Shown here in pieces: positions 6,085 to 39,218 of a DNA stretch of 64,000 bases. Position numbers and translations under genes: made by a program. Each line of letters opens with the position of its first letter. The stretch's first letter is position 1. Location of the stretch: assembly GCF_016925635.1 (NCBI RefSeq), contig NZ_CP070490.1, positions 4,656,001-4,720,000 of the forward strand, in the 5' to 3' direction. The notes under the pieces were generated by a model. That model was not told the DNA's origin. It did no database searches and saw nothing but the letters and a program-made list of their open reading frames with translations. The stretch is from Lysinibacillus fusiformis (GTDB lineage: Bacteria; Bacillota; Bacilli; Bacillales_A; Planococcaceae).

Positions 6085-6180
6085 AAAAAATCCTGACTAC
6101 AAAAATAAAGCAAAGTTTTGTAGTCAGGATTTTATGGTTCCTGGTAGAGACCCTCAATCCATATTATTGAGGTTATACAG
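6085..6180 (-). promoter_or_regulatory. purine riboswitch (C74, guanine-type) with terminator platform
   Basis: Read on the minus strand: P1 TGTA/TACA, P2 closing an AATATGG loop, J2/3 TCTCTACC, P3 CAGGA/TCCTG closing AACCATAAA, then J3/1 = A-C before TAC. All core bases of the purine aptamer are present. The discriminating base (position 74) is C (plus-strand G at 6123), the guanine/hypoxanthine type, whereas B. subtilis pbuE has U (adenine). The aptamer's 3' half (CCTGACTACAAAA) is also the 5' arm of a terminator (6134-6085) with a T-run. Ligand binding should therefore block termination, an ON switch like pbuE. Confidence 0.92.
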
Positions 6181-6359
6181 ATCAAATATTTACTTTAGCT
6201 ATAGTAGCACATCAAAATTTCATTGACAATAGCTTTTTTTATAGAGTTTTTTACATCTAACAATCTTTTCATCGAGAGAAAATTTCGATTTTCTGCTTAT
6301 ATTTCGACGAATTTGACCATATATAATAACATACAATAACTATTTTACGAGGTGATTGT

Positions 6360-15854: not shown

Positions 15855-15888
15855 GGAAAGCCCCGCTTCAGTTGAAGTGGGGCTTTCC
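15855..15888. terminator. terminator copy 1 (left of element A)
   Basis: GGAAAGCCCCGCTTCA-GT-TGAAGTGGGGCTTTCC, a perfect 16-bp stem. An almost identical copy lies at 16458-16492 on the other side of element A. Confidence 0.85.
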
Positions 15889-15892
15889 TATT

Positions 15893-16455
15893 GTTGAAAA
15901 ACAAAACCATCAATAGAATTTTTGTGAAAGGTGAAAATGGTTTCCGTTGCAGGCTACTTGCTTTCCTGTGGGCGAGCGCCGAATCGCTTCCTCCGCTACC
16001 GCTCCGTTTAGAGTTTTGCCTGTCTCGCTATCCCACGGGAGTCAAGTAGCCCTCCACTCCAACCTACAAAATGTTAACTTTTTAGCAAAGATTTTCAACT
16101 AAAGTGAAGGTCTTCACTACCCATTTTATGGAGGGCTTTTGACACTCATCACTTCTTCGCAATGAAAATAAGAGTCTATCCTTTCTCTAATCATACAAAT
16201 AATGGGCTAATTTGATTACTACGGCTAGCTAGTATGAAAGATAAGGAAAAGCCACTTTTGCAGAATGGTTGATTGGAGTGGAGCTAGCGTCACTCCTAGG
16301 GGATTTAGCGTCACAGAGGAGACCCTGGAGCGAACGGAAGTGAGTGAAGCGGCTCATCGGACGCCCCCTGGAAAGGACGCTGGCGGAACGGAAATCAACC
16401 CCTCGCCTTGCCAAAAGGTCTTTTTCTGCTAGTGACATGATCTTTTTTCAACAAC
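15893..16455 (+). repeat. dispersed non-coding element, copy A (563 bp)
   Basis: Bounded by GTTGAAAAAC on the left and its complement TTTTTTCAACAAC on the right. Two GC-rich modules stand out from the AT-rich surroundings. Module 1 (about 15950-16056) folds as a long hairpin (GGCTACTTG..CAAGTAGCC, CCTGTGGG..CCCACGGG, GCGAG..CTCGC). Module 2 (about 16269-16411) is closed by GGTTGATT/AATCAACC. The whole element matches 38669-39176 read in reverse complement, with ~30 bp more in the middle. It carries no credible ORF or transposase. A direct terminator copy lies outside each end. Confidence 0.85.
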
Positions 16456-16457
16456 AT

Positions 16458-16492
16458 GAAAGCCCCGCTTCACAGTTGAAGTGGGGCTTTTC
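16458..16492. terminator. terminator copy 2 (right of element A)
   Basis: GAAAGCCCCGCTTCA-CAGT-TGAAGTGGGGCTTTTC: the same stem as at 15855-15888 in the same orientation, with a CA insertion in the loop. It now serves the minus-strand bmrD gene. Confidence 0.85.
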
Positions 16493-38628: not shown

Positions 38629-38665
38629 GAAGCCCTTGATTTGTGTAAAAACAAATCAAGGGCTT
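38629..38665. terminator. terminator copy 1 (left of element B)
   Basis: GAAGCCCTTGATTTG-TGTAAAAA-CAAATCAAGGGCTTC: perfect stem, T-poor tail. The same 37 bases recur exactly at 39182-39218 in the same orientation. Confidence 0.8.
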
Positions 38666-38668
38666 CAT

Positions 38669-39176
38669 GTTGTTGAAAAAAGATGATGTCAACGGCAGAA
38701 AAAGCAACTTTGCAAGGTGAGGGGTTGATTTCCGTTCCGCCAGCATCCTTTCCAGGGGGCGTCCGAGGAGCCGCTTCACTCACTTCCGTTCGCTCCAGGG
38801 TCTCCTCTGTGACGCTAAATCCCCTAGGAGTGACGCTGGCTCCACTCCAATCAACCATTCTGCAAAAGTGTCTTTACTTTTTTTCATAGTAGCATAGCGA
38901 TCAAATCGCCCATTAACTGTATTCTTAGAGGGGATAGGCTCTTATTTTCAATGTGGCGAAGTGATGCGTGACAACCTTCACTTTATTTGAAAATCTTTGC
39001 TAAAAAGTCAGTGGGTTGAAGTGGAAGGCTACTTGACTCCCGTGGGATAGCGAGACAGGCGAAGCCCTGCACGGAGCGGTAGCGGAGGAAGCGATTCGGC
39101 GCTCGCCCACAGGAAAGCAAGTAGCCTGCAACGGAAATCCATTTCTACCTTTCAATTGACAGTTTTGTTTTTCAAC
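38669..39176 (-). repeat. dispersed non-coding element, copy B (508 bp, inverted relative to copy A)
   Basis: Begins GTTGTTGAAAAAAGATG and ends TTTTTCAAC. Read in reverse complement it aligns end to end with 15893-16455: module 2 hairpin (about 38722-38860), AT-rich middle, module 1 hairpin (about 39027-39130). GC-rich modules contrast with neighbours. No ORF with coding character; the frames through the modules recur in both copies and look like structure by-products. It sits between two exact copies of the local terminator. Confidence 0.85.
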
Positions 39177-39181
39177 ACTAA

Positions 39182-39218
39182 GAAGCCCTTGATTTGTGTA
39201 AAAACAAATCAAGGGCTT
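39182..39218. terminator. terminator copy 2 (right of element B)
   Basis: Identical 37-bp copy of 38629-38665, including the asymmetric loop, hence a direct duplication. It now ends the minus-strand 39226 gene. Confidence 0.8.

Follow-up and report, generated by a model that had tools for sequence, protein, structure and literature searches.

A non-coding element with IS1182-type ends lies between duplicated terminator hairpins in Lysinibacillus fusiformis

Introduction

Target repeats in the IS1182 family are listed as 0–60 bp. That members of this family target terminator hairpins is already known, and duplication of the whole hairpin has been proposed as one branch of a model. In the available part of PMC5678879, insertions of IS1272 replace a stem-loop, and duplication of the entire stem-loop appears, with no example given in that part, as pathway b of the model figure; the available part of PMC4923244 has TnSha1 and IS1272 targeting hairpins and terminators, with deletion. 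Both texts, in the same portions, also mention at second hand that some IS1182 members target palindromes. For ISCbo5, the accessible text of PMC3098183 places all sites but one at hairpins at gene ends, which are taken there as transcription stop signals, and uses the expression 'surrounding hairpin'. An excerpt of PMC11578231 describes an IS1182-type MITE with 4-bp repeats, and bcr1 of Bacillus has been described as having the characteristics of a mobile element, to go by a title cited in PMC2267715.

Here we describe element A of Lysinibacillus fusiformis, two copies of which lie in the window, that is, the whole stretch of 64,000 nucleotides that was analysed (contig NZ_CP070490.1, positions 4,656,001 to 4,720,000). 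As far as the excerpts cited above go, the staphylococcal IS1182-family elements IS1272 and TnSha1 resemble the partner of element A in their family and in their target, a hairpin or terminator of varied sequence; however, insertion of IS1272 removes the hairpin by replacement or deletion, with no target duplication, whereas element A mostly doubles it. In the same partial sources, ISCbo5, an IS1182-family member from Clostridium, shares with element A the sites at gene-end hairpins but is an IS-element transposon and not a MITE, and MITEPye1 of Paracoccus yeei has 4-bp direct repeats and 1–3 chromosomal copies, whereas element A has hairpin-length repeats and dozens of copies; no hairpin target is mentioned for MITEPye1 in that excerpt. 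Compared by description, and from partial sources, bcr1 and other Bacillus stem-loop repeats are, like element A, dispersed intergenic structured repeats; those sources connect them neither with IS1182 ends nor with duplicated terminators. In the open-licence literature we found no description of a hairpin-length duplication by a MITE.

Results

Element A in the window is a 572-bp non-coding unit, and the features at its two loci are as follows.

15857..15886, plus strand: left copy of the duplicated terminator hairpin, with the sequence AAAGCCCCGCTTCAGTTGAAGTGGGGCTTT; a single copy is present in the empty-site relatives L194 and L195
15887..16458, plus strand: element A, 572 bp, non-coding, with IS1182-type ends
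15887..15912, plus strand: left terminal inverted repeat of element A, CCTATTGTTGAAAAACAAAACCATCA
15941..16064, minus strand: first copy of the structured GC-rich module, with covariation; an inverted relative of the right module
16268..16402, plus strand: second copy of the structured GC-rich module, a GTTGATT...AATCAAC unit, with covariation
16432..16458, minus strand: right terminal inverted repeat of element A, CATGTTGTTGAAAAAAGATCATGTCAC
16459..16490, plus strand: right copy of the duplicated terminator hairpin, equal to AAAGCCCCGCTTCAGTTGAAGTGGGGCTTT with a loop 2 nt longer
38630..38665, plus strand: terminator copy at the second element, 36 bp
38666..39182, minus strand: second copy of element A in the window, in the opposite orientation to the first
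39183..39218, plus strand: second terminator copy at the second element, 36 bp, identical to the other (0 mismatches); a single copy is present in L224, L227 and L228

A preliminary description of this DNA had placed a 563-bp element between near-identical copies of one terminator and a related element between exact copies of another. The bracketing copies are indeed found at both loci (15857–15886 and 16459–16490 at the first, two identical 36-bp copies at the second), and the edges of the first element were nearly right; only its size had to be corrected, to 572 bp. The terminators at the two elements are different sequences, and flanking sequences vary between loci genome-wide, so that the picture of a conserved element beside a locus-specific terminator extends to the whole genome. 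The inverted ends of element A read CATAG, CCTAT or CTTAG followed by TGTTGAAAAAC, and CATGTTGTTGAAAAAA. There is no open reading frame of at least 100 amino acids inside the element (15887–16458) and hence, as the preliminary description also had it and as is expected of a MITE, no transposase gene. An Rfam search of element A returned no match at the gathering threshold, and its weak matches were at chance level.

The element in the window is one of about 75 genome copies. A DNA search of the genome, in which the best 40 of 148 candidates were scored, was complemented by pattern searches with the element ends: the left-end pattern gave 107 matches at ≤1 mismatch, 77 of them exact (9 for the reversed control), and the right-end pattern gave 75 matches at ≤3 mismatches (0 for the control). 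Copies were then read from the search loci and from fetched stretches, 350,696 bases in total, in which 71 copies possess both ends (67 being shorter than 700 bp) and 33 further ends stand singly. Controls here gave 19 versus 85 matches for a looser right-end pattern and 1 versus 90 for the left end; because control patterns also give matches, some of the end pairings and single ends are chance matches. No match to element A was found in the plasmid and phage collections that were searched.

Copies of element A occupy intrinsic-terminator positions. Under a simple longest-ORF rule, applied to 63 of the 67 copies shorter than 700 bp, 36 copies lie between convergent genes, 22 between codirectional genes and 1 between divergent genes, with 4 unassigned. 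The median distance from the element to the closest stop codon that points at it is 43 bp, and in 56 of 60 cases this distance is no more than 120 bp. At G000:C1:726276-726839, two left ends of element A stand in tandem with one terminator shared between them. Four copies in this genome have ends that lie far apart and were considered, by their size, as autonomous copies. This was rejected for three of them (L068, L069 and L071), which are interrupted by genes in or between their ends that we take from their protein sequences to be IS3-type and IS4-type; the fourth is at G000:C1:1742579-1744744.

We compared the 60 bp outside each end for all 71 copies, using 4970 mismatched flank pairings as background. 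The duplication score exceeds the maximum of these pairings in 54 of the 71 copies and their 99th percentile in 55, the additional copy (3460745) being a chance match. Most copies are thus flanked by a duplication, the outcome on which the preliminary description had staked its reading, and a hairpin on each side in 54 of 71 copies agrees with its view that both neighbouring genes are left with a terminator. Across the 55 candidate repeats, the length ranges from 21 to 41 bp with a median of 33. Their folding energies have a median of -17.7 kcal/mol, compared to -2.5 for random windows, and 44 of the 55 repeats are more stable than the 1st percentile of those windows. The predicted duplication of 30–40 bp of terminator is therefore upheld as a duplication and refined to the hairpin itself. 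As the repeat mostly starts at a distance of 5 nt from the left TGTTG motif and 2 nt from the right one, the element can be written as CATAG-TGTTG...CAACAACA-TG.

The duplication is also symmetric. Among ungapped duplications that abut both ends with ≤12% mismatches (37 of at most 71), the centre of the duplication lies within 0.5 nt of the palindrome axis in all 37 copies and exactly on it in 34; the length is 29 to 37 bp in 34 of the 37. This symmetry is not an artefact of the method, because the edges of the duplication are set by the element's own ends. The earlier proposal of insertion next to an intrinsic terminator accordingly keeps its terminators, as the stop-codon distances bear out, and changes in its geometry, to insertion into the hairpin with a symmetric cut.

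A clear duplication is absent in 17 of the 71 copies, with the chance match at 3460745 counted here. Four of these (1448390, 1700270, 1962199 and 2017180) are pairings with a poor right end of 5–6 mismatches, one (1035679) adjoins a second element, and in two (1136934 and 2256824) a GAGGCTGGGACA-type end occupies the position of one terminator; that at 1136934 belongs to a full IS1182-type element (L032, G000:C1:1137468) and the other is L113. Such ends at the position of the missing terminator copy suggest that hairpin-replacing and hairpin-doubling modes may coexist in one genome. In the rest of the 17, the flanks differ or match partly on the two sides. At 4838786 there is one hairpin here and one hairpin at the empty site of a relative, which speaks against a strict duplication rule or reflects a later loss. 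A single end outside the 71 (L070, G000:C1:3229344) apparently has just the first half of a hairpin doubled, up to the loop.

Relatives of L. fusiformis offered empty sites for comparison. The locus of the first window element (site 1) was taken from 29 of the 31 other genus genomes among the matches listed, and L200 and L201, at contig ends, were dropped. No element end lies within ~800 bp at site 1 in the 27 relatives with a readable locus; at the second element (site 2), an element-like end motif is found nearby in 1 of 22 relatives (L229). A pattern count scored no hairpin in 6 of the 27 relatives at site 1, where it misses diverged hairpins, scans 220 bp and scores one hairpin at our own locus; at site 2 it scored one hairpin in 10 of 22, none in 12 and two in 0, again missing diverged hairpins. 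We base the empty-site claim on stretches read from flank to flank and not on these weak counts. Between the flanks of site 1, 16 of 20 relatives have one hairpin in a gap of 48–108 bp and four have extra, other sequence, and between those of site 2, 18 of 19 relatives have one CCTTG-type hairpin, L233 being without it.

Stretches fetched from three relatives added four more loci in G003, one of these also in G008, and none from G002. Altogether, five loci (4671892, 4694668, 4753608, 4811467 and 4848618) have two terminators here versus one in a relative, the last three empty sites being read in G003 only. The possibility that empty sites already hold two terminators, which the preliminary description had named as fatal to its proposal, is thus not borne out at any of the five. 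Two further loci are occupied elsewhere: at 2401224 an element lies between a pair of similar hairpins in another species (L088), and at 3689001 the element present in G003 is altered on its left.

The element lacks a transposase, and we turned to the IS1182-type transposons for a partner. A search with the DDE domain PF13751 pointed to seven places in this genome. One of these, the IS1182-type element L037, has the ends CATTCTGTTGATAAAC and CATGTTGTTGAAAAACAACCTTGTCAATG and lies between exact 33-bp hairpin copies. A single in-frame stop splits its gene into two pieces, which match DUF772, DDE_Tnp_1, DDE_Tnp_1_6 and the IS1182 model, each piece alone scoring below the whole-protein cut-off of that model (NF033551). 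The transposases of L171 and L191 score 289 and 283 bits against NF033551, for a cut-off of 270. Of 261 genomes, 6 yielded partner-type genes, namely our own, G013 and G021 from the genus, and G040, G067 and G160 from other genera of the same family; further relatives of the partner occur in Neobacillus sp. OS1-33 and Bacillus sp. AFS006103. The intact partners are only 60–63% identical to our own copy. Since the only partner-like transposase found in this genome has an in-frame stop, the copies of element A may be fossils or may need an unsampled strain. No solved structure resembled the partner transposase; two topoisomerase matches (E 0.12–0.13) were at chance level.

The ends of these transposons match those of element A closely. 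The motif CAT..TGTTGA.AAAC is common to the element A copies of this genome and the IS1182-type transposons. The transposons L171 and L253 have the left end CATTCTGTTGAAAAACAAAATCGTC and the right end CATAGTGTTGAAATAAGATTATGTCAATG, and in L171 the left end resembles the left end of the element and the right end its right end. The right end of L255 and L256, CACAGTGTTGAAAAACAAAACTGTCAATG, resembles the left end of element A, CATAGTGTTGAAAAACAAAACCATCAATAG, and the transposon right end CATGTTGTTGAAAAACAACCTTGTCAATG (L037 and L169) was compared with the right end of element A. Another IS1182-type element resident in this genome, with GAGGCTGGGACA ends (L031–L035), was also considered as a partner and was rejected; its ends differ.

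Transposons with element A-like ends also double hairpins. We examined 15 copies with both ends and distinct flanks, including our own stop-bearing copy and one shortened copy, and found a hairpin duplication in 11, of 14–37 bp and in every case exactly centred. Of the four copies without duplication, three are flanked by hairpins that differ between the two sides, a pattern expected after recombination between copies. A second IS1182 group, whose ends are different (CAGACTGTAGACAAACTC; L146 and L174–L190; G007, G008 and G025), also duplicates whole hairpins: 9 of 10 copies have such a duplication, all of them centred. The target duplication, which had appeared unusually long in the preliminary description, is indeed long, but its length is a trait common to the IS1182-type transposons examined.

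The body of element A consists of two ~130-nt modules in opposite orientation. When thirty modules from the genus, left and right ones together, are aligned, they have in common a single long imperfect hairpin of 31 pairs, 15 of them with compensatory changes. In this alignment 97.6% of cells are paired and the covariation score is 0.367, versus 0.127 in shuffled and ≤0.051 in slid controls; further pair types (28 versus 27.6 in shuffles) are not in excess, and independent changes are fewer than the cell counts because left and right modules form two groups. A second alignment, which combines the window with 19 modules found at other loci, 18 in other genera and one in the genus, has 39 pairs, 22 of them with compensatory changes; alignment A2 leaves out L287. 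With a covariance model, at rough E-values, we detected the module in 113 of the 120 genomes sampled from the order, our own included and all of one family, and in 17 of 17 genera. The printed loci of other genera (L277–L296) contain a solo repeat of ~132 bp with GTTGATT...AATCAAC-like ends, and no transposon ends were seen beside the solo module in these loci. An Rfam search matched the module to no family. The module has a strand bias in predicted RNA energy, which is no more than a hint as to its function.

Discussion

Because its ends match those of IS1182-type transposons and the hairpin duplication is common to both, element A appears to be a MITE-type derivative of such a transposon. 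It has the IS1182-like terminal inverted repeats of a MITE of this family, for which there is an autonomous transposase of the IS1182 family with the same target and the same duplication. Judging from sequence comparison, we consider it very probable that element A is an IS1182-derived element of this type, moved in trans by a DDE transposase and doubling hairpins at terminators; the mobilisation in trans suggested in the preliminary description is likewise supported by IS1182-family transposons with matching ends.

As to mechanism, the transposase would recognise an extruded hairpin or cruciform, in which a single four-way junction brings together both 5' feet of the stem-loop. The 3' ends of the element would be joined at these two 5' feet, and gap repair would then copy the hairpin on both sides. 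It is the symmetry of the duplications from which we infer recognition of a cruciform. Insertion may be harmless to the neighbouring genes, and the terminator hairpin left on either side of an insertion would account for the tolerance of dozens of copies between genes.

An alternative is that the element takes the place of the stem-loop and leaves no duplication, in the manner of IS1272. The transposase family is the same, IS1272 and TnSha1 delete the hairpins that they target according to the available parts of PMC5678879 and PMC4923244, and the resident GAGGCTGGGACA-end element has no direct repeat in the flanks of three copies, where flanks alone were compared. However, in most copies of element A and of the transposons with its ends the hairpin is retained and doubled, and the five empty sites with one terminator versus two here are the opposite of a hairpin lost without duplication, which makes replacement highly improbable for element A. 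We give even less credence to an origin without transposition, with terminators doubled beforehand or the element spread by homologous recombination or gene conversion between terminators. Copies with different flanks on each side are what recombination between copies would give, but the terminator sequences vary by locus, the empty sites are single-copy, the inverted ends match a transposon family, and a two-terminator empty site is found in none of the 20 (site 1) and 19 (site 2) stretches from relatives.

The length and placement of the duplications bear on a further possibility, that a long stagger of fixed size sets the duplication and selection against gene disruption leaves only the insertions at terminators. 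The range of 29–37 bp in 34 of 37 ungapped duplications fits a fixed stagger; yet lengths run from 14 bp (L181) to 41 bp and track the palindrome, and the centre is on the axis in 37 of 37, 11 of 11 and 9 of 9 cases. Such centring is not what selection acting on a fixed stagger would produce, and we regard this explanation as very unlikely. Group IIC introns also prefer terminator hairpins, and a single-strand route such as theirs or that of HUH elements, with the hairpin read as single-stranded DNA, would share the target of element A. To our knowledge, however, these routes do not duplicate the target; moreover, no Rfam group II intron was found at threshold in the window or among the weak matches of element A, and the partner has IS1182 and DDE domains, leaving little probability for a route of this kind. 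Hairpin doubling by an IS1182-type transposase acting in trans therefore remains our preferred reading.

This reading adds dozens of natural cases, five of which have empty sites, in favour of whole-stem-loop duplication by IS1182-type transposition. What is new is the number of natural cases, the exact symmetry, and the covarying ~130-nt module without Rfam match across the family. It also makes structure-directed target choice testable, in that the duplication should follow when the palindrome is altered. We lean somewhat towards a more general view, in which the IS1182-type class would read DNA shape and cut at the two symmetric feet of an extruded palindrome, and the non-autonomous form would carry, as two inverted copies, a family-wide structured module that is a candidate new non-coding RNA or single-stranded DNA structure. 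The strongly covarying module, given its presence in most of the family genomes surveyed (113 of 120) and the lack of an Rfam match, is a separate lead.

Elsewhere in the window, a purine riboswitch is located at 6101–6200 on the minus strand.
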